From Neoroseomonas marina (GTDB lineage: Bacteria > Pseudomonadota > Alphaproteobacteria > Acetobacterales > Acetobacteraceae): a DNA stretch of 64,000 nt. The stretch covers positions 124,001 through 188,000 of the forward strand of contig NZ_JABBKX010000003.1 in the NCBI RefSeq assembly GCF_012927745.1, in the 5' to 3' direction. Positions 42,209 to 51,495 of this stretch are shown in pieces. Under the pieces are notes generated by a model. The model had not been told where the DNA came from, did no database searches, and worked only from the letters and a program-made list of their open reading frames with translations. A program made the translations under genes and the position numbers. Position 1 is the first letter of the stretch. Each line of letters begins with the position of its first letter.

Positions 42209-43510
42209 TCAGGGCGCGCGCGCCGCGGCGAGGATCTCGTCGATCGGATCCAGAGCCGCGACACGCAGGATCTGCCTGGCGAAGACCTCCCGGTTGTGCC
42301 GCGCGGCGAGGCGCAGCCGCGTCATCTCCGCCGGCGTGAAGCCTGGCGCGCGGCCGAGGAAGCGCGCCACCGAGGCGAGTGCCGCGGCGAAGCGGCGATC
42401 GGGCGCGGGTTCCGCGTCGTAGCCGTGGTCGACCAGATCGGGCAGCGTGTCGAAGCCCAGTTCGGCGAGCCCCGCGACGGTGCCGTGATTGCCGAAGACG
42501 ATGAAGGGCAGGCCGCTCGCCAACGCCTTCAGCGTCTTCTCGGTCCAGCGGTGCAGGTTGGGCCAGACCATCTCCGTTTCGGTGACGATGAAGAGCTCCG
42601 AGGCCGCGACCTCCTCCATCGGCAGCGAATGGACGCGCCAATGGCTGTGCGCGAAGGCCTCGGTGTCGCCGGTGCGGTCCATGCCGGAGGCAAGCAGCGC
42701 CTCGACCCGCGGATAGAGGCCCGGCTCGACCCGGGCGAGCCAGGTCGCGTCGCGCGCGAAGCGGCCCCGGGCCGCCTCGTCCTCCTCGATGCGCTTCACC
42801 GAGAAGGTCAGGTGGCCGGGTTCCTCGCGCGCCAGCAGCCAGGCGGCGAGTACGGCGCGATGTGCGCGCACCACGTAGTTCAGGCAGATCCAGCGGTTGC
42901 GGCGCGGCCCGTCCGAGGCCAGCGCGAAGCCGAAGGGCCAACGTGCGGGTGGCTCGCCCGGCAGCGGCTTGATCTCGGGTGCAAAGAGACGGTGCCACAG
43001 CCCGAGCGCGTAGCCGTCGCCGGTCACGATGCGCACCGGTTCGATCCCGCGCGCCGCGCACCAGGCGCGATACTCGGTGCCGAGCGCGCGGTTCTGCTGC
43101 ACCCAGGCGGTGCGCTCCGCCGGGAGCCCCGCGGCCTCCAGCGCAGCATGCAGGATCGCGGCTTCCTCGCCGCGGAAGGCGCGGCCCTCGCTGGCGCCAT
43201 CGAGCACCAGTTGCCCCTGCCCGGCCCGGATGCGGTCCAGGGCCTCGGGCGGCGCGGGCGAGAGCATGGCCAACGCCTCCGCCGTGTCGAGCAGCCGCGC
43301 CAGATGCGCGAAGGGCGAGAGGATCAGCGGCCCGTCGCGCGGTCCCGGCGCGACGTTCCGGTCGATCATCTGCCGCAGCTGGCCGATCAGCAGGCCATGG
43401 CGGATGCCCTCCGGCGCGACGATCTCGCAGCGGGCCAGCGCCTCCAGCCGCGCGAGCAGCGGCCGGCCGGGATGGTCCGTCGGCAGGTCGGGCGGGCGCG
43501 GAGGCTGCAT
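42209..43510 (-). CDS. Glycosyltransferase-like protein of unknown function
   Basis: A 433-residue soluble protein. The last third contains WTEKTLKALASGLPFIVFGN, then TVAGLAELGFDTLPDLVDHGYD, resembling the C-terminal part of fucosyltransferase-like and phage-type sugar transferases (S/TEKTxK...G.PFI...L..LGF.T....D..YD). The N-terminal half is not recognised. I use ATG 43510 (MQPPRPPDLPTDHPG); upstream in-frame sequence looks non-coding. It converges on flgN, so a role in glycosylating flagellin or surface sugar is possible but not shown. Confidence 0.55.
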   Translation of the reverse strand: MQPPRPPDLPTDHPGRPLLARLEALARCEIVAPEGIRHGLLIGQLRQMIDRNVAPGPRDGPLILSPFAHLARLLDTAEALAMLSPAPPEALDRIRAGQGQLVLDGASEGRAFRGEEAAILHAALEAAGLPAERTAWVQQNRALGTEYRAWCAARGIEPVRIVTGDGYALGLWHRLFAPEIKPLPGEPPARWPFGFALASDGPRRNRWICLNYVVRAHRAVLAAWLLAREEPGHLTFSVKRIEEDEAARGRFARDATWLARVEPGLYPRVEALLASGMDRTGDTEAFAHSHWRVHSLPMEEVAASELFIVTETEMVWPNLHRWTEKTLKALASGLPFIVFGNHGTVAGLAELGFDTLPDLVDHGYDAEPAPDRRFAAALASVARFLGRAPGFTPAEMTRLRLAARHNREVFARQILRVAALDPIDEILAAARAP

Positions 43511-43589
43511 CCGCCATGCATGCCGCGCGACGCTGGTCCCGTCCACAGGGCACCTTGCCCGCTTCGCTGCGGCGCAGCAGGGTGCGGCC

Positions 43590-44117
43590 GTGACAAGCTT
43601 CCTCCGCCGCCATGCCAGCCTGCTGGTGATCGGCGCCATCGCCTCGCTGGGGGCCGCCGCGCTGTGGCAGCGCGACGGCGGGCCGGCAGTGGGTCGGGCG
43701 CTGTACCACGCCTGGGAACTCTTCCTGTTCATCGCGCCGTCGTTGCTGGCCGGGATGCTGCTGGCCGCGGCGCTGCGGCAATTGATGTCGCCGGGCGCGC
43801 TGGCGCGCTGGATGGGGGCCGAGAGCGGCTGGTTCGGCCTGGCCGTCGCGACGCTCGCGGGGATGCTGACGCCGGGCGGGCCGATGGCGGCCTTTCCGCT
43901 GGTGCTGGTGCTGGCCGGCGCGGGCGCCGATCGCGGGGCGCTGGTGGCCTACATCACCTCCTGGACGTTGAACGGCTTCCAGCGCGTGCTGGTCTACGAG
44001 GCACCACTGCTCGGGCCCGGCTTCGCCATCCTGCGGGTGGTCATCACCCTGCCGATGCCGCTGCTGGCGGGGTGGATCGCACGCCGCCTGCCGATCGCCT
44101 GGGAGCCGCCGAAGTGA
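43590..44117 (+). CDS. Permease half-protein A (COG0701-like)
   Basis: A 175-residue membrane protein with four or five hydrophobic helices. The central loop GMLTPGGPMAAFPLVLVLAGAGA with a following SWTLNGFQR resembles one repeat of the two-repeat COG0701 (ArsP/YraQ-type) permeases. It starts at a GTG at 43590 and overlaps the next gene as GTGA. The next gene has the same motif, so the two probably form one transporter from split halves. The substrate is unknown. Confidence 0.65.
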   Translation: MTSFLRRHASLLVIGAIASLGAAALWQRDGGPAVGRALYHAWELFLFIAPSLLAGMLLAAALRQLMSPGALARWMGAESGWFGLAVATLAGMLTPGGPMAAFPLVLVLAGAGADRGALVAYITSWTLNGFQRVLVYEAPLLGPGFAILRVVITLPMPLLAGWIARRLPIAWEPPK

Positions 44118-44698: not shown

Positions 44699-45478
44699 AT
44701 GGATCACCCTGTTCCCGACCCGGACTGGACTGCCCTGCTGGCCGCGCGCGACGGCGGCGCCGCGCCGGGGGGCGCATTGGCGCCACTCTTCGCGCCGATC
44801 CTCGCGGCGCCCGCCACGGCGGATGGCTGCCGCGTCGTCGGGCGCCTGGCGCAGACGCTGGACGGGCGCATCGCGACCGCCACCGGATCGAGCCAATGGA
44901 TCGGCGGACACGGCGACATCCTGCACACCCACCGGCTGCGCGCGCTGTGCCACGCCGTCGTGGTTGGCGCCGGCACGGTACGGCATGACGATCCGCGCCT
45001 GACGACGCGGGAAGTGCCCGGGCCCGACCCGGTGCGCATCGTGATCGACACCGAGCGGCGTCTGTCCACGGATTACCGTGTGTTCCGCGAGGGGCCGCCG
45101 ACGCTGCTCGCCTGCGCGGAGGATGCCGCGGGCAGCGACCGGCACGGCACCGCCGAGGTCCTGCGCCTGCCGCGCGACCCGGCGGGCGGCATCGCGCCGG
45201 CAGCGCTGCTCTGCTCGCTGGCCGCCCGCGGCCTCACGCGGATCTTCGTCGAGGGCGGCGGGCTGACCGTCTCCCGCTTCCTCGCGGCGGGATGCCTCGA
45301 CCGGCTGCACGTCACGGTCGCGCCGGTACTGCTGGGCTCCGGCATCCCGGCCTTCACCCTGCCCGAGGTCGCGCGCATCGCGGACGGCTTGCGCTTCACC
45401 TGGCGGGTACACGAGATTCCGCCGGATATCCTGCTCGACATCCCGCTCGACCGCGTGCGTCCGGGATGCGCGGCATGA
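44699..45478 (+). CDS. RibD C-terminal-type (dihydrofolate-reductase-fold) reductase
   Basis: A 259-residue protein with the RibD_C domain: VVGRLAQTLDGRIATATGSSQWI (substrate/NADPH region), HRLRALCHAVVVGAGTVRHDDPRLTTR, the FVEGGGLTVSRFL motif and a C-terminal VTVAPVLLGSG. RibD reduces the ribosyl side chain of a pyrimidine in riboflavin synthesis, but there is no deaminase domain here and no other rib gene, so it may act on another pyrimidine or pteridine. It begins the plus-strand series of dehydrogenase, PTPS-like, GT4 and methyltransferase genes and is coupled to the dehydrogenase by ATGA. Confidence 0.82.
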   Translation: MDHPVPDPDWTALLAARDGGAAPGGALAPLFAPILAAPATADGCRVVGRLAQTLDGRIATATGSSQWIGGHGDILHTHRLRALCHAVVVGAGTVRHDDPRLTTREVPGPDPVRIVIDTERRLSTDYRVFREGPPTLLACAEDAAGSDRHGTAEVLRLPRDPAGGIAPAALLCSLAARGLTRIFVEGGGLTVSRFLAAGCLDRLHVTVAPVLLGSGIPAFTLPEVARIADGLRFTWRVHEIPPDILLDIPLDRVRPGCAA

Positions 45479-46455
45479 GCGAGGCACGTGCGCTCTGGAC
45501 CGTCGCCCCGGGGCGCTGCGAGATCCGCACAGACGGGCTGCCGCCGCGCGCCGCGGACCAGGCGCTGGTCCGCACGCTCGCGACCGGCATTTCGCGGGGC
45601 ACGGAACGCCTGGTCCTCGCGGGACGCGTGCCGGAGAACCAGCGCGCGGCGATGCGCTGCCCGCTCCAGGCGGGCGATTTCCCCTTCCCGGTGAAATACG
45701 GCTACGCGGCGGTCGGCGTGGTGGAGGATGGGCCGCAGGCCTTGGTCGGCCGGCGCGTCTTCGTCCTGCATCCGCACCAGGACCGCTTCCTGGCTCCCGC
45801 GGCCATGTGCATCCCAGTGCCGGATGACGTGCCGGACACGCGCGCGGTCCTCGCCGCCAACATGGAGACCGCGGTCAACGTCACCTGGGATGCGCGGCCC
45901 CTCGCGGGGGAGCGCGCCCTCGTCATCGGCGCCGGGGTGGTCGGGCTGCTGGTCGCCGCGCTGCTCGCCCGCATGCCGGGGATGGAGGTCGTGGTCTGCG
46001 ACGTCGATCCGCGCCGCCGCGTCATCGCCGAGGCACTCGGCGCCCGCTTCGCCCAGCCGGAGGACGCACCCGGCGAGAGCGACCTGATCGTCCATGCCAG
46101 CGCGGACCCTGCCGGGCTGCGCCGCGCCCTCGACCTCGCCGGCTTCGAGGGACGCATCGTCGAGGCATCCTGGTTCGGCACCCGCGAGGCGACGCTGCCG
46201 CTCGGCGAGACCTTCCACGCGAAGCGGCTGCAGATCGTCTCGACCCAGGTCGGCGCTGTCGCGCCCGCCATGCGCGGGCGGCGGACGCATGGCGAACGGA
46301 TGGCGCTCGCCCTGTCCCTGCTGGCCGATGCGCGGCTCGATGCCCTGGTCGGGCCGGCGACGCGCTTCGACGATCTGCCCGAGGCCATGCCGCGGCTGCT
46401 GAACCCGCCGCCGGGCGAGATCCCGCCCCTCTGCCCCCTCGTCACCTACGGCTGA
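45475..46455 (+). CDS. Zinc-type medium-chain dehydrogenase-like protein
   Basis: A 326-residue MDR-superfamily protein. The NAD(P)-binding motif is VIGAGVVGLLVAALLARMPG (about residues 147-166). Before it lie the catalytic-domain segments SRGTERLVLAGRVP and VKYGYAAVGVVEDGP. The usual catalytic Cys-His zinc ligands of alcohol dehydrogenase are not obvious (TGISRGTE replaces the CHTD-type site), so it may not be zinc dependent. It overlaps the reductase gene by four bases (ATGA). The reaction is unknown; a role in the same pathway as its neighbours is inferred. Confidence 0.78.
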   Translation: MSEARALWTVAPGRCEIRTDGLPPRAADQALVRTLATGISRGTERLVLAGRVPENQRAAMRCPLQAGDFPFPVKYGYAAVGVVEDGPQALVGRRVFVLHPHQDRFLAPAAMCIPVPDDVPDTRAVLAANMETAVNVTWDARPLAGERALVIGAGVVGLLVAALLARMPGMEVVVCDVDPRRRVIAEALGARFAQPEDAPGESDLIVHASADPAGLRRALDLAGFEGRIVEASWFGTREATLPLGETFHAKRLQIVSTQVGAVAPAMRGRRTHGERMALALSLLADARLDALVGPATRFDDLPEAMPRLLNPPPGEIPPLCPLVTYG

Positions 46456-46573
46456 GGCTTGCGGGTGGGTTGCGCCCGTCCCACCTCCCCTGATGGCGGT
46501 GCCCATCCGGCTGCCCGCCCGGCAGCGCCGCCATCCCCGTGCCCTTCGGCGCGGTTGCGGGCAGGAGGGCGTC

Positions 46574-46717
46574 ATGGCTGCAACCCATCGCGGGCCCGCA
46601 GGCCCGATCACGACAGCCGTCCGGCAGGGCGTGACGCTGGGCGTCATGCGCTGGGTCCTGGCCGCCTCGCTTCTGGCGGCGGTCATCGGTCTGGTGGTGG
46701 CGCGGCTGCTGGCCTAA
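46574..46717 (+). CDS. Tiny single-pass membrane protein (47 aa)
   Basis: A 47-residue frame starting MAATHRGPAGPITTAVRQGV, with one hydrophobic helix at the C-terminus (MRWVLAASLLAAVIGLVVAR). A very good ribosome binding site, GCAGGAGGGC, lies six bases before ATG 46574, which supports translation. It sits in the 320-base gap between the dehydrogenase and the PTPS-like gene. No family recognised; the rest of the gap shows no other feature. Confidence 0.5.
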   Translation: MAATHRGPAGPITTAVRQGVTLGVMRWVLAASLLAAVIGLVVARLLA

Positions 46718-46778
46718 CCACGGCTAAGCTCGGCGCCCCGCGGATGACGGGCGCGCATGCCGCCGCTACAAGGACGGC

Positions 46779-47183
46779 ATGTTCAGCCTGACCGTCGTCG
46801 ACCACGTCATGATCGCCCATTCCTTCCGCGGGGAGGAATTCGGGCCGGCGCAACGCCTGCACGGCGCCACCTTCGTGGTGGAAGCCGAATTCCGCGCGCC
46901 GAAACTCGACCACCTGAACCTGCTCGTGGACATCGCCGCGGCGAAGGTGGAACTGCGGAAGATCCTCGACGGCTTCGATTACCGGAACCTCGATGCGGAA
47001 CCGCAGTTCGCAGGGCAGAACACCACCACCGAATTCCTCTGCGCCCATGTCCACAAGCTGCTGTCGGCCGCGCTGGCCGAAGGGCGGCTCGGCGAGGGCG
47101 GGCGCGCGGTGACGGGGCTGAAGGTGCTGCTGCGCGAAAGCCATGTCGCCTGGGCGGCCTATGAGGGAGCGCCCGCCGCTTGA
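46779..47183 (+). CDS. Divergent 6-pyruvoyl-tetrahydropterin synthase/QueD homologue
   Basis: A 134-residue T-fold protein. Retained PTPS/QueD features are His14 (MIAHSF), His28 in RLHGA, Asp51, the NTTTEFLC segment (81-88) and the substrate-anchoring Glu120 (LLRESH). Lost features are striking: the third zinc ligand in HGH is Ala30, the catalytic Cys before RLHG is Ala24, and the LDHxxLN His is Tyr68 (FDYRNLD). It probably cannot do the canonical reaction. I recall similar PAQRLHGAT-type proteins in other alphaproteobacteria, so this looks like a subfamily rather than a decayed gene. It is coupled to the GT4 gene (TTGA). Confidence 0.78.
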   Translation: MFSLTVVDHVMIAHSFRGEEFGPAQRLHGATFVVEAEFRAPKLDHLNLLVDIAAAKVELRKILDGFDYRNLDAEPQFAGQNTTTEFLCAHVHKLLSAALAEGRLGEGGRAVTGLKVLLRESHVAWAAYEGAPAA

Positions 47184-48226
47184 GCGTCCATCTCCTCGTC
47201 CCCGGCCCCTTCGACGCCATCTCGGGCGGCTACATCTACGACCGGCGCATGGTCGAAGGGCTTCGCGCCCTCGGCGAGACGGTCGAGGTCGTGGAACTGC
47301 CCGGCCACCACCCCGCGCCGGACGAAGCGGCGACCGAGGGCGCGCGCGCCGCGCTGCACGCCCTGCCGCCCGATGCGCGGGTGGTCATCGACGGGCTCGG
47401 CCTGCCGGCCTTCCTGCCGCTGGCGCAGGAACTCGCCGCCCGGCGCGTCACCGCGCTGATCCATCACCCGACGGCGCTCGAACACGGCACGGCGGAATCT
47501 ACCCGCACCGTGCTGAAGGCGAAGGAACGCGCGCTGTTTGCCGCCTGCGCCCGGATCGTCTGCACCTCGCCGCTCACGGCGCGGCGGCTGCCGGAGGAAT
47601 TCGGCGCCGATCCGGCGCAGATCGGCGTGGTCGAGCCCGGCACCGATCCGGCGTCGCGCGCCAAGGGTTCGGGCGGACCGGGCTGCGCCATCCTCTCAGT
47701 CGGCACGCTGGTGCCGCGCAAGGGGCATGACGTGCTGCTCAAGGCGCTGGCGCGCCTCACCGACCTCGAATGGACGCTGACCATCGCGGGGGACGAGCGG
47801 CGCGATGCGACGCACGCCCAGGGACTGCGCGCCCTCGCCGAGGAACTCGGGATCGCCTCCCGCGTCACCTTCGCGGGCGAGGTCACGGGCGAGGAGCTCG
47901 AAGCGCTCTACGCGGGGGCCGACCTGTTTGCGCTCGCGACGCGCTGGGAGGGCTACGGCATGGCCGCGGCGGAGGCGATGGCCCGCGGCCTGCCGCTCGC
48001 CATTACCGCCGGCGGCGCGATCGCCGAGGTGGTGGCCGAGGGATCGGCCATCGTCTCCCCGGTCGATGACGTGATGTCGCTGTCCAAGGGCATGCGGCGG
48101 CCGATCTTCGACGCGGACCTCCGCGCCGAGATGGCCGAGGCGTCCTGGCAGGGCGGGCAGCGCCTGCCGCGCTGGACCGATCGCGCCGAGGCGTTCCGCG
48201 CCGAGCTCGCCAAGGCGGTCGCCTGA
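47180..48226 (+). CDS. GT4 family glycosyltransferase
   Basis: A 348-residue GT-B-fold glycosyltransferase. It starts MSVHLLVPGPFDAISGGYIYDRR and its C-terminal half has VGTLVPRKGHDVLLKALA and the donor-binding GYGMAAAEAMARGLPLAITAGGAIAEVV with an E-x7-E spacing (Glu-Ala-Met then later Glu). Retaining GT4 enzymes use nucleotide sugars. The start is TTG overlapping the PTPS-like stop, and the stop overlaps the methyltransferase start, so all three are coupled. In cyanobacteria, pterin glucosyltransferases are GT4 enzymes, which makes a pteridine acceptor conceivable. Confidence 0.85.
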   Translation: MSVHLLVPGPFDAISGGYIYDRRMVEGLRALGETVEVVELPGHHPAPDEAATEGARAALHALPPDARVVIDGLGLPAFLPLAQELAARRVTALIHHPTALEHGTAESTRTVLKAKERALFAACARIVCTSPLTARRLPEEFGADPAQIGVVEPGTDPASRAKGSGGPGCAILSVGTLVPRKGHDVLLKALARLTDLEWTLTIAGDERRDATHAQGLRALAEELGIASRVTFAGEVTGEELEALYAGADLFALATRWEGYGMAAAEAMARGLPLAITAGGAIAEVVAEGSAIVSPVDDVMSLSKGMRRPIFDADLRAEMAEASWQGGQRLPRWTDRAEAFRAELAKAVA

Positions 48227-49101
48227 TGACGGAGGCCTTCGACGGCGACTGGCTGGACCTGCGCGAGCCCTATGACGCGGCCTCGCGCGATTTCGGCCTG
48301 GCGGTGCGGCTGGCGGCGGCGCTGCCGGCGCGGCCGCGCATCATGGACCTCGGCGCCGGGACCGGCAGCCTGTTGCGCTGGCTCGGCCATTTCATTGGGC
48401 GCGCCCAGGCCTGGACGCTGGTCGATGCCGACCCCGAGCTCGCGGATCGGGCCTTCGAGACCATCGCCGACCGCGCCGAGGCCGTGGGCTGGACGGCGAC
48501 CTGGCCGGGGAAAAAGACCCTGCTGGTCCATTCGCCGGAAGGTGCGTGGCGGATCGAGGGGCTGATTGCGGACCTCGCGGAAGCCCCGGACAACCTGCCG
48601 CTCGACAAGGTGGATGCGGTGGTGTGCTCGGCGCTGTGCGACCTGGTCTCGCGCGGCTGGGTCGAGCGCATCGCCGCCGCCTGCGCCGCCCGCCGCCTGC
48701 CCTTCTATGCCGCGCTGAACGTGACCGGGAACGAGCGCTTCGCGCCGCCGCGCCGCGGCGATGCCGTGGTGATGCGCGGCTTCCGGCGCGACCAGCGGCG
48801 CGACAAGGGCTTCGGCGGCATCGCCCTCGGCGCTGCGGCGCCGGACGCGATCGCCGAGGCCTTCGCCGCGCAGGGCTACACGGTGCATCGCGCGCCGTCC
48901 GACTGGGTGATCGACCGCCGCGCCGGCGCGATCACCGAAGCGATCGCGGTCGGTCACGCCACCGCAGCGCTCGCCTGGGAACGGCGATCGGGCGCGGCGA
49001 TCGAGGACTGGCTCGCGGCGCGCCGCTCACAGGCGGTGAACAGGGCTCTCTCGATCCGCATCGGCCACCAGGACATCCTCGCCCTTCCCCCCGAACGGTA
49101 A
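48226..49101 (+). CDS. Class I SAM-dependent methyltransferase
   Basis: A 291-residue methyltransferase. Motif I is RIMDLGAGTGSLLRWLG (about residues 38-54), motif II acidic residue is in TLVDADPELADRAFE, and VDAVVCSALCDLVSRGWVERI follows as motif IV-like. The substrate is unknown. It is the last gene of the reductase-to-methyltransferase series and overlaps the glycosyltransferase stop by one base. The cupin gene starts ten bases later and may or may not share the transcript. Confidence 0.85.
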   Translation: MTEAFDGDWLDLREPYDAASRDFGLAVRLAAALPARPRIMDLGAGTGSLLRWLGHFIGRAQAWTLVDADPELADRAFETIADRAEAVGWTATWPGKKTLLVHSPEGAWRIEGLIADLAEAPDNLPLDKVDAVVCSALCDLVSRGWVERIAAACAARRLPFYAALNVTGNERFAPPRRGDAVVMRGFRRDQRRDKGFGGIALGAAAPDAIAEAFAAQGYTVHRAPSDWVIDRRAGAITEAIAVGHATAALAWERRSGAAIEDWLAARRSQAVNRALSIRIGHQDILALPPER

Positions 49102-49111
49102 GGAGACCGCC

Positions 49112-49597
49112 ATGTCCGACGCCAAGCCCCCGATCGCCGTCGTCGCCGCCGAGGTGCCGCCGCGCGCGAAGCTCTCGGGCTATCCGAAGGACCTGGTCGA
49201 GAAGATCGGCAACCGCCAGAAGACCGTCCTCGGCGACCTGTTCGGGCTGAAGAATTTCGGCGTGAACATCACGCGCCTGCCGGCCGGATCGGCCTCCGCA
49301 TTGCGCCACGCGCACGAGAAGCAGGACGAGTTCGTCTACATCCTCGAAGGCGAATGCATCCTGGTGACGAATGCCGGCGAGACGCCGATGAAGGCCGGCA
49401 TGTGCGCCGGCTTCCGCGCCGGCACGGGCGACGCCCATCACCTGGTCAATCGCGGCGGCGCGGATTGCGTCTACCTCGAGATCGGCGACCGCACGCTGTT
49501 CGAGAGCGTCGACTACCCCGATGACGACCTGATGGTTCGCCCCGGACCGGACGGGAAGTCGGTCTATTTCCGCAAGGACGGAACGCGCGTCTTCTGA
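49112..49597 (+). CDS. Cupin-domain protein, operon with otnK/otnC
   Basis: A 161-residue cupin. Motif 1 is RHAHEKQDEFVYILEGECIL (His-x-His, Glu) and motif 2 GFRAGTGDAHHLVNRG with the distal His; a metal site is intact. It may be a sugar or sugar-acid isomerase. It is 13 bases upstream of otnK with GAAGGAGGG between, so probably in one operon. An RGNRQKT-type N-terminal extension is typical of uncharacterised cupins. Confidence 0.8.
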   Translation: MSDAKPPIAVVAAEVPPRAKLSGYPKDLVEKIGNRQKTVLGDLFGLKNFGVNITRLPAGSASALRHAHEKQDEFVYILEGECILVTNAGETPMKAGMCAGFRAGTGDAHHLVNRGGADCVYLEIGDRTLFESVDYPDDDLMVRPGPDGKSVYFRKDGTRVF

Positions 49598-49610
49598 AGG
49601 AGGGCCACGA

Positions 49611-50870
49611 ATGCCCCTGCTGCTTGGCTGCATCGCCGACGATTTCACCGGCGCCACGGATCTCGCGAACACGTTGGTCAAGGCGGGCATGTCCGCCGTC
49701 CAGGTGATCGGCGTGCCGACGGGGCCGCTGCCCGAGGCCGATGCGGTGATCATCGCGCTCAAGATCCGTACCGCGCCGGTCACCGAGGCGGTCGGTCAGT
49801 CCCTCGCGGCCTGCGATGCGCTGACCAAGGCCGGGGCGAAGCAGCTCTTCTGGAAGTACTGCTCGACCTTCGACAGCACGGACCAGGGCAATATCGGCCC
49901 GGTGGGCGATGCGCTGCTCAAGCGGCTCGGCTCGGGCTTCGCCATCGCCTGCCCGGCCTTCCCGACCAATGGGCGGACGATCTATCTCGGCCACCTGTTC
50001 GTGGGCGGGGCGCTGCTGAACGAGAGCGGGATGGAGAACCATCCGCTCACGCCCATGACCGACCCAAACCTGGTGCGCGTGATGGCACGGCAGACGGATG
50101 GCAGCGTCGGCCTCGTCTCCTTCCCCGTCGTCGAGCAGGGCGTGGCGGCGATCCGGCGCGCCATGACGGGGATGATGGACCGCGGCACGCGCTGGGCGAT
50201 CGTCGATGCGGTCTCCGACGCGCATCTGATGGCGATCGGCGAGGCCGTCGCGCCGCAGGCGCTGGTGACTGGCGGTTCGGGCGTGGCGATGGGCCTGCCG
50301 GAGAATTTCCGCCGCGCTGGACTGCTGCCGGAACGCAGCGACGCCGGCGCCCTGCCGCCGATGACGGGCGCTGCCGCCGTCGTCGCCGGGTCCTGCTCGC
50401 GCGCAACGCTCGGGCAGATCGGCCTCGCGCGCGACCACGTGCCGGTGCTGGAGCTCGATGCGCTGGCGACGCCCGATGCGAAGGCCATGACGGCGCAGGC
50501 GCTGGCCTGGGTCGACGGCAAGCTCGAGGACGGGCGTCCCGTCGTCATCGCCGCCAGCGCGACGCCGGAGAAGGTCGCCGCCCTGCAGGCGAAACTCGGA
50601 CGCGACGCGGCCGGCGCGCTCGTCGAGGACGCCGTCGCCTCCATCGCCGAGGGCCTGGTCGCGCGCGGCGTCGGTCGCCTGGTGGTGGCGGGCGGTGAGA
50701 CCTCGGGTGCGGTGGTGACGCGCCTGGGCGTCACGTCGCTGCGCATTGGGCCGGAGATCGACCCCGGCGTGCCGTGGACCTTCGCCGAGCCGAAGGGCAT
50801 CCATCTTGCCTTGAAGTCCGGCAATTTCGGCGCGCGCGATTTCTTCCTGAAGGCCTTCGACCATGGATGA
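49611..50870 (+). CDS. otnK: Four-carbon acid sugar kinase family protein (OtnK/DUF1537)
   Basis: A 419-residue kinase. The N-terminal DUF1537 signature is LGCIADDFTGATDLANTL, and the C-terminal ATP-binding domain has VVAGGETSGAVVTRLGV and IGPEIDPGVPW. OtnK enzymes phosphorylate 3-oxo-tetronates during breakdown of threonate or erythronate. It overlaps the aldolase gene by eight bases, and OtnK-OtnC pairs are the known catabolic unit. The related ltnD-type dehydrogenase and OtnI are not seen here unless the upstream cupin has that role. Confidence 0.85.
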   Translation: MPLLLGCIADDFTGATDLANTLVKAGMSAVQVIGVPTGPLPEADAVIIALKIRTAPVTEAVGQSLAACDALTKAGAKQLFWKYCSTFDSTDQGNIGPVGDALLKRLGSGFAIACPAFPTNGRTIYLGHLFVGGALLNESGMENHPLTPMTDPNLVRVMARQTDGSVGLVSFPVVEQGVAAIRRAMTGMMDRGTRWAIVDAVSDAHLMAIGEAVAPQALVTGGSGVAMGLPENFRRAGLLPERSDAGALPPMTGAAAVVAGSCSRATLGQIGLARDHVPVLELDALATPDAKAMTAQALAWVDGKLEDGRPVVIAASATPEKVAALQAKLGRDAAGALVEDAVASIAEGLVARGVGRLVVAGGETSGAVVTRLGVTSLRIGPEIDPGVPWTFAEPKGIHLALKSGNFGARDFFLKAFDHG

Positions 50871-51495
50871 GGCGGCGCTGCGCGAGCAGCTCGCGATGCT
50901 CGGCGCCTCGCTGTTCCAGCGGGGCTATTCGGTGGGCACGGCGGGCAACATCTCGGTGCGGCTGCCGGACGGCTACCTGATGACGCCGACCAATTCCTGC
51001 CTGGGGCGGCTGGATCCCGCGCGGATCAGCAAGCTGGGGCCGGATTGGTCGCATGTCGGTGGCGACAAGCCGTCCAAGGAAGTCTTCATGCACCGCGCGG
51101 TGCTGACGGCGCGGCCGGATGCGGGCGCGGTCGTGCATCTGCATTCCACTTGCGCGACCGCCATCGGCTGCCTCGCGGAACCTGGCGAGACGGCGCCGAT
51201 CCCGCCGCTGACGCCCTATTTCGTCATGCGCGTCGGCCGCACCCTGCCGGTGATCCGCTACTACCGGCCCGGCGATGCGGCGATGGAGGCGGACATCCAC
51301 GCGGCGGCGAAGGACGCGAAGGCCGTGCTGCTCGCGAACCACGGGCCGGTGGTGTCCGGCAAGACGCTCGCCGATGCCGTGGCTGCGGCCGAGGAGCTCG
51401 AGGAATCCGCCCGGCTCGCCCTGCTGCTGCGCGGCGCGCCCGCGCGCACGCTGACGCCGGCGCAGGTGGACGACCTGCTGAACACCTTCGGCTGA
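50863..51495 (+). CDS. otnC: Class II aldolase family, 3-oxo-tetronate 4-phosphate decarboxylase (OtnC)
   Basis: A 210-residue class II aldolase/adducin-type protein. The metal site is visible as VVHLHSTCATAIG, with a further His in LANHGPVVSG; GTAGNISVRLPDGYLMTPTNS is the N-terminal signature. OtnC decarboxylates 3-oxo-tetronate 4-phosphate to dihydroxyacetone phosphate and CO2. It overlaps otnK by eight bases and the next gene by one base. Fuculose-phosphate aldolases share the fold, but the kinase partner supports OtnC. Confidence 0.85.
   Translation: MDEAALREQLAMLGASLFQRGYSVGTAGNISVRLPDGYLMTPTNSCLGRLDPARISKLGPDWSHVGGDKPSKEVFMHRAVLTARPDAGAVVHLHSTCATAIGCLAEPGETAPIPPLTPYFVMRVGRTLPVIRYYRPGDAAMEADIHAAAKDAKAVLLANHGPVVSGKTLADAVAAAEELEESARLALLLRGAPARTLTPAQVDDLLNTFG

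Follow-up and report, generated by a model that had tools for sequence, protein, structure and literature searches.

We describe here a compact set of five genes of Neoroseomonas marina, found in a 64,000-nt stretch of contig NZ_JABBKX010000003.1 (hereafter the window; the genome measures 5.15 Mb) and encoding, in this order, a RibD_C reductase, an MDR dehydrogenase, a T-fold protein of the PTPS family, a GT4-type glycosyltransferase, and a predicted S-adenosylmethionine (SAM) methyltransferase (MT). These five genes belong to a conserved gene set found in very different bacteria; its content, conservation and order, and the altered catalytic residues of the T-fold protein, were established directly. 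The best reading of these data, to which we attribute a probability of roughly 0.58, is that these genes form the centre of a dedicated pathway that leaves riboflavin (vitamin B2) synthesis at its earliest intermediates, GTP and 2,5-diamino-6-ribosylamino-pyrimidinone phosphate (DARPP), and whose product is probably a sugar-decorated, methylated small molecule.

When the methyltransferase was used as a query against 289 alphaproteobacterial genomes, 33 genomes belonging to 22 family codes were positive, the window's included, and the core formed by MDR, PTPS, GT4 and methyltransferase genes was complete in 30 of them. In this set, RibD_C was found in 24 genomes, GTP cyclohydrolase II in 10, a CDP-alcohol transferase and cytochrome b561 in 8 each, and creatininase in 6. 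The surroundings of the 32 other positives were scored with profiles whose sources were eight plasmid clusters and the window, hence the scores of those nine loci hold by construction, and the thresholds for presence and order were set by us; the 33 positives are also a lower bound, as a genome scored negative (G053) holds a PTPS-IV cluster cut by a contig end (L252). A second search, with a PTPS-IV alignment against the GTDB species genomes, returned at least 587 relatives, of which the best 80 were kept, an uneven sample given that these are the nearest to the window's PTPS protein (one of them, L139, appears to come from a genome already represented by L072 in the first search). Among these best 80 loci the core was complete in 68, with MDR found in 78, GT4 in 76, the methyltransferase in 69 (one of which, L143, was entered by hand), RibD_C in 52, and RibA in 28. 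By taxon, 44 fall on the alphaproteobacterial side (three labelled only Proteobacteria), 34 are from Actinomycetota, and one each is from Chromatiaceae (Lamprocystis) and from an Acidobacteriota metagenome-assembled genome; the complete core spans three phyla. The nearest named loci to the window's PTPS protein among the matches listed are from Roseomonas and Neoroseomonas. Because the same genes recur together over three phyla, we regard the cluster as more than a chance neighbourhood, and the co-occurrence check proposed in a preliminary description of this DNA was, once run, strongly positive. Plasmids carry the set as well, with a complete core in seven of the eight records opened among 14 that matched, and judging from these copies and from its patchy spread, the pathway is probably mobile. 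In two alphaproteobacterial genomes of 1.4-1.6 Mb (G161 and G259, loci L077 and L078), the whole cluster is kept together with RibD_C, RibA, and creatininase.

The order and strand of the MDR, PTPS, glycosyltransferase and methyltransferase genes were also kept, in 30 of 30 complete loci from the genomes, 65 of 68 from the PTPS search, and 6 of 7 from the plasmids, the exceptions being L130, L145, L143 (where one long frame was scored as two genes), and the plasmid locus L040, with GT4 on the opposite side. Estimated gaps of 30 bp or less separate PTPS from the glycosyltransferase in 84 of 113 loci and the glycosyltransferase from the methyltransferase in 84 of 106. The RibD_C gene either precedes these four genes in the same orientation or follows them and faces them, so its linkage was re-made; that it is kept as a partner in changing positions speaks for a functional tie and not for synteny by descent. 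RibA is found inside or beside the cluster in many relatives. In the actinobacterial loci of the best 80 (n=34), where LPG_synthase_TM was found in 33, a CDP-OH transferase in 32, and creatininase in 23, the commonest order is a reversed CDP-alcohol transferase, MDR, PTPS, GT4, methyltransferase, LPG_synthase_TM, a reversed creatininase, and RibA (accessory families were verified with Pfam on samples). A scan of the neighbours of 50 chosen loci returned an MdoH-like glucosyltransferase, named after the annotation of one member, in 9, a putative ABC-transporter ATPase in 9, a putative response regulator in 7, YceI in 6 (confirmed with Pfam), and a putative LysR-type regulator in 6.

In the window, all five open reading frames (ORFs) are open on one strand between positions 44699 and 49101 (Table 1), and their family calls, or the model fold in the case of the methyltransferase, agree with the names given in the preliminary description; the Pfam scores of RibD_C, PTPS and Glycos_transf_1 all exceed the cut-off, and the dihydrofolate reductase (DHFR)-like fold proposed for RibD_C holds. 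Of the four coupled junctions reported there, the motif types were right, but the count is three: ATGA between RibD_C and MDR, TTGA between PTPS and GT4, and TGATG between GT4 and the methyltransferase, while a gap lies between MDR and PTPS. The observation of a compact five-gene cluster is thus partly confirmed.

Table 1. Features of the five-gene set, in window coordinates.
Feature	Position	Strand	Evidence
RibD_C reductase, stand-alone, DHFR-like fold, 259 aa	44699..45478	+	Pfam PF01872, 139 bits
MDR dehydrogenase, distantly BchC-like, 326 aa	45475..46455	+	ATGA overlap with RibD_C
Gap of 323 bp, dividing the set into two coupled blocks	46456..46778		Coordinates
PTPS-IV T-fold protein, FGPAQ signature, altered catalytic residues, 134 aa	46779..47183	+	PTPS Pfam, 74 bits
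GT4-type glycosyltransferase, TTG start, 348 aa	47180..48226	+	TTGA overlap with PTPS; Glycos_transf_1, 106 bits
Class I SAM methyltransferase (predicted), no named family, 291 aa	48226..49101	+	TGATG overlap with GT4; model fold

The gap contains a 47-codon frame (46574-46717) with a hydrophobic, membrane-helix-like stretch. Directly after the cluster, at 49112-51495, are genes for a cupin, a 3-oxo-tetronate kinase (NF043035), and a 3-oxo-tetronate 4-phosphate decarboxylase (NF043034); OtnK-like genes are found in 35 of 42 Acetobacteraceae-side loci, and in L114 and L117 such a gene immediately follows GT4, with no methyltransferase of the cluster family found there. A 506-aa frame on the minus strand, at 42209-43732, matched neither a Pfam nor an NCBIfam family at E 0.001.

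The T-fold protein had been placed in the PTPS/QueD family; the family assignment stands, yet this is neither PTPS nor QueD proper, as the window protein falls in PTPS-IV (COG0720), with altered catalytic residues. Six PTPS subfamilies have been named, with FGPAQ as the signature of PTPS-IV and with PF00925 and PF01872 as its neighbours (PMC5445326, where PF00925 is called GTP cyclohydrolase I, while Pfam itself has GTP cyclohydrolase II). In our alignment the F, G, P and A of this signature are present in 33 of 33 sequences, and the Q in 32 of 33 (window among them). The neighbourhood of RibA and RibD_C typical of PTPS-IV is present in the set; of the two, only RibD_C was found in the window. 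Based on the alignment to 2g64 and 3i2b, and on the residues that we take to be catalytic in PTPS, the catalytic Cys and the third zinc His are both replaced by Ala in 33 of 33 sequences (HGH becoming HGA), and the triad His by Tyr in 29 and by Phe in 4, so that the CxxxHGH motif with the catalytic Cys, zinc His and triad His of QueD (PTPS-I) and PTPS proper is not found. The Asp next to the triad position is kept in 6 of 33, window included. Two Glu (Glu85 and Glu120) and two His are, however, invariant in all 33, and because of this we regard PTPS-IV as a conserved protein with a changed chemistry and not as a decayed one. The nearest solved chain is 3d7j (SCO6650; E 8e-62 over profile positions 1-131), deposited as uncharacterized, which carries the same FGPAQ signature; according to Spoonamore and Bandarian, SCO6650 reportedly lacks both zinc and PTPS activity. 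The proximity of PTPS-IV to GTP cyclohydrolase II and RibD genes, which the cluster shares with the subfamily, is already published (PMC5445326), although the accessible sections of that paper name only those two neighbours, and MDR, GT4, the methyltransferase, creatininase, the CDP-OH transferase and the flippase-like gene are added here. The arrangement as a whole, for which the preliminary description could name no known pathway, was not found in the literature searched (titles and opening abstracts, with subscription papers and preprints outside it), nor was its product, but its PTPS-IV, PF00925 and PF01872 portion was in print.

Could PTPS-IV stand in for QueD, and the set serve queuosine or another 7-deazapurine? 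In the window's genome QueG and QueC are adjacent (L251 5330-7065; C20 about 95-97 kb), no QueD-type PTPS was found, and PTPS-IV is the sole PTPS-family match, as it is in 11 of the 16 other cluster genomes; a PTPS gene lies directly beside QueC in three genomes of the window's family, and PTPS-IV is the only PTPS in 4 of the 9 QueC-bearing cluster genomes. We nonetheless consider this very improbable, given that in PTPS-IV the catalytic Cys, the triad His and one of the zinc His residues are replaced, and that a strong QueC is present in only 9 of 17 cluster genomes (window's included). Moreover, among the 49 negatives of the methyltransferase search, 5 of 16 strong-QueC genomes had no PTPS match whatsoever, and a missing QueD therefore does not by itself implicate PTPS-IV. 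The queuosine link was tested and is not favoured, strong QueC being missing in 8 of 17 cluster genomes. A role in the synthesis of F420-type deazaflavins, for which RibA and a RibD_C reductase act upstream of the F0 precursor, is hardly to be expected: this link was likewise tested and not favoured, as CofH, a subunit of F0 synthase that F420 production requires, scored above its cut-off in no more than 5 of the 17 cluster genomes, the window's not among them. In the literature searched, no tested function of PTPS-IV was found, and the F420 link is made in one sentence on the archaeal proteins that cites unpublished data (PMC5041015).

RibD_C is the only Pfam match of the 259-aa reductase, in which no deaminase domain was found, and it is therefore not a bifunctional riboflavin RibD, which has an N-terminal deaminase. 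Among solved chains it comes closest to 6p8c, which bears the name 2,5-diamino-6-ribosylamino-4(3H)-pyrimidinone 5'-phosphate reductase, and, as judged from sequence, it resembles DARPP reductase and the reductase domains of RibD; DARPP is its putative substrate. The window's genome carries four RibD_C genes, the cluster copy among them. In a 68-row tree (47 cluster and 21 non-cluster sequences), the window RibD_C branches with 36 other cluster RibDs and with one gene from G035, where the contig of the cluster ends (support 86, unstarred), and the riboflavin-type RibD of the same genome, near its RibBA-type gene, falls outside this branch. That the set provides a second or overflow route to riboflavin would agree with the presence of RibA, RibD_C and a BrbF-type formamidase, all riboflavin enzymes. 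It would also agree with G161, where no RibD_C besides the cluster copy was found, and with G189 and G259, where among the aligned matches for GTP cyclohydrolase II the zinc Cys residues are carried by the cluster RibA alone (a weak third match in G189 was left out). This is, however, quite improbable, as the set has no deaminase domain, further RibD_C genes are present in 15 of the 16 other cluster genomes and in the window's, and GT4, PTPS and a methyltransferase are unneeded to make riboflavin.

With regard to how the pathway might begin, ArfC is part of the archaeal early riboflavin route. GTP is converted to a formamidopyrimidine (FAPy) and then to DARPP both in that route, by GTP cyclohydrolase III and ArfB, and in the bacterial BrbF route (PMC9478397, PMC13028884). 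In Sinorhizobium, the creatininase-family protein BrbF deformylates FAPy (there AFRPP) to DARPP, and the accessible sections of the same paper leave the FAPy-making enzyme open (PMC9478397). This entry would be shared by the cluster, as would the step that we propose to follow, in which a separate RibD_C-type enzyme carries out the reduction; the cluster differs in having no deaminase and in adding the T-fold protein, MDR, GT4 and the methyltransferase. A Tyr of RibA is conserved in 11 of 11 zinc-Cys-bearing non-cluster RibAs examined, including that of the window's genome (10 degenerate RibBA-type matches were excluded from this comparison). Of the 42 cluster RibAs, 28 come from clusters with creatininase, and 24 of these have Met, His or Gln in place of this Tyr, against 0 of the 14 from clusters without it (Fisher p 6e-8). 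Spoonamore and Bandarian are said to have found that SCO6655, where the Tyr is changed to Met, makes FAPy. A change from HSEC to HSxC was considered as a mark of FAPy-forming RibAs and rejected, as HSQC and HSSC are also found in non-cluster RibAs. No GTP cyclohydrolase II was found by profile search in the window; a canonical RibA is encoded elsewhere in the genome, and this, with the lack of a creatininase profile match in the window, is consistent with DARPP being drawn from the shared route.

As for the remaining enzymes, the MDR scored under the ADH_zinc_N Pfam cut-off (28.1 vs 31.8), and BchC (TIGR01202), its best NCBIfam match, reached 52 bits where the cut-off is 291, and thus the protein is not assigned to BchC. 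Its family is tightly conserved, 29 sequences having 40 invariant columns and a mean column identity of 59%. A Ser lies opposite the catalytic-zinc Cys (GICGSD-type motif) of 4ilk, in an aligned stretch of only 7.6 bits, and the MDR possibly works without a catalytic zinc. The GT4 protein is placed in its family by a Glycos_transf_1 score well over the cut-off of 26.4, and its best solved match is 6kih, followed by MshA- and PimB-type chains. The methyltransferase did not reach the cut-off of either Pfam family listed, and no NCBIfam family matched it at E 0.001, but its model (pLDDT 96.1; Foldseek E 1.2e-10 to 3mgg) predicts a class I fold, and D41, G45 and G47 of a DxGxG-type motif are invariant in 31 of 31 sequences. 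These enzymes might instead suggest that MDR, GT4, the methyltransferase, a CDP-alcohol transferase and a flippase build a polyol- or sugar-based glycolipid, with RibD_C and PTPS-IV acting on a non-pteridine substrate. The solved folds nearest to the MDR model include sugar-alcohol dehydrogenases, at 14-20% identity, and sugar-acid dehydrogenases (among them L-idonate, xylitol and sorbitol dehydrogenase), the GT4 matches include D-inositol 3-phosphate glycosyltransferase and phosphatidylinositol-monomannoside mannosyltransferase, and the CDP-OH transferase and LPG_synthase_TM are common in Actinomycetota loci. Such a pathway is nevertheless unlikely: genes for GTP cyclohydrolase II and for creatininase-family proteins recur beside the cluster, RibD_C is closest to the reductases mentioned above, and Glu85 and Glu120 of PTPS-IV are invariant.

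In the pathway from GTP and DARPP that we favour, GTP would be opened by GTP cyclohydrolase II, here the separate canonical RibA of the genome, whereas in many relatives a cluster-borne RibA variant would stop at FAPy, and a creatininase-family formamidase would complete the step. The stand-alone RibD_C would then reduce DARPP; because the set has no deaminase, the 2-amino group would be retained, and the ring would head to a pterin-type and not to a flavin-type product. PTPS-IV would bind the ring via its changed active site and, together with an NAD(P)-dependent MDR, close or rearrange and oxidise it, after which the molecule would be glycosylated by GT4 and then methylated by the methyltransferase. 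The product that we infer, along with the substrate of RibD_C, the reactions past DARPP and the order of the steps, would be oxidised, glycosylated, methylated, and of pterin type; in many lineages it is perhaps lipid-linked, as the presence of a CDP-alcohol phosphatidyltransferase and of LPG_synthase_TM in Actinomycetota and some Alphaproteobacteria suggests that the former might attach it to a phospholipid and the latter, a flippase-like protein, move it across the membrane. Cyanobacteria and green sulphur bacteria make glycosylated pterins by way of GTP cyclohydrolase I and a PTPS that is active; our product would be alike in its glycosylation, but its source would differ. The toxoflavin and pseudoiodinine clusters likewise use GTP cyclohydrolase II and RibD paralogues, and the latter (psd) also methyltransferases, yet the seven psd genes listed in the accessible part of that report include no PTPS, glycosyltransferase or MDR, unlike the cluster here (PMC9911603). 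Cytochrome b561 and YceI adjoin some clusters, and we might speculate, while considering it doubtful, that the product represents a new class of membrane redox cofactor, with a glycosylated, methylated pterin-type head linked to a phospholipid by the CDP-alcohol transferase, flipped by LPG_synthase_TM, and served by these two proteins.

We acknowledge that several findings weigh against this interpretation. Within the 64 kb of the window, profiles for RibA, creatininase, CDP-OH transferase and flippase had no match, and because the last two were not found, the lipid link is unsupported for this genome. The core is incomplete in 3 of the 33 genomes, namely at contig ends in L055 and L056, and in L068, which lacks PTPS and MDR and is not at a contig end. 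It is also incomplete in 12 of the 80 PTPS-search loci: in L124 and L125 the record ends 1.7 kb or less from the PTPS gene, and in L123 1.8 kb past GT4, while L126 and L129 lack MDR, methyltransferase and RibD_C, L107, L114, L117, L150 and L156 lack the methyltransferase, L119 lacks both the glycosyltransferase and the methyltransferase, and L134 the glycosyltransferase. RibD_C is nearby in just 10 of 34 actinobacterial loci, and eight of the nine actinobacterial cluster RibDs treed fall in another clade with non-cluster genes; with two alphaproteobacterial cluster RibDs also unplaced on the tree, a single origin of the cluster RibD_C is therefore argued against. Four creatininase clusters retain the RibA Tyr, and the tree gives one independent RibA-creatininase pair on starred branches and three on all, so that the loss of this Tyr follows lineage, plausibly with a reason behind it, and is not an independent proof. 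Two more distant BrbF homologues failed to complement (PMC9478397), and a creatininase-family gene need not, for this reason, encode a FAPy formamidase. The fold searches with the MDR and methyltransferase models point to no substrate, and no product, activity or mutant of the pathway was found. The earlier proposal of a glycosylated, methylated molecule from a pyrimidine or pteridine is partly supported and fits the gene content.

If the proposed branch is true, the first steps of riboflavin synthesis would feed a second, widespread bacterial product. In addition, the cluster gives PTPS-IV a defined set of partners in three phyla, including genomes of 1.4-1.6 Mb.

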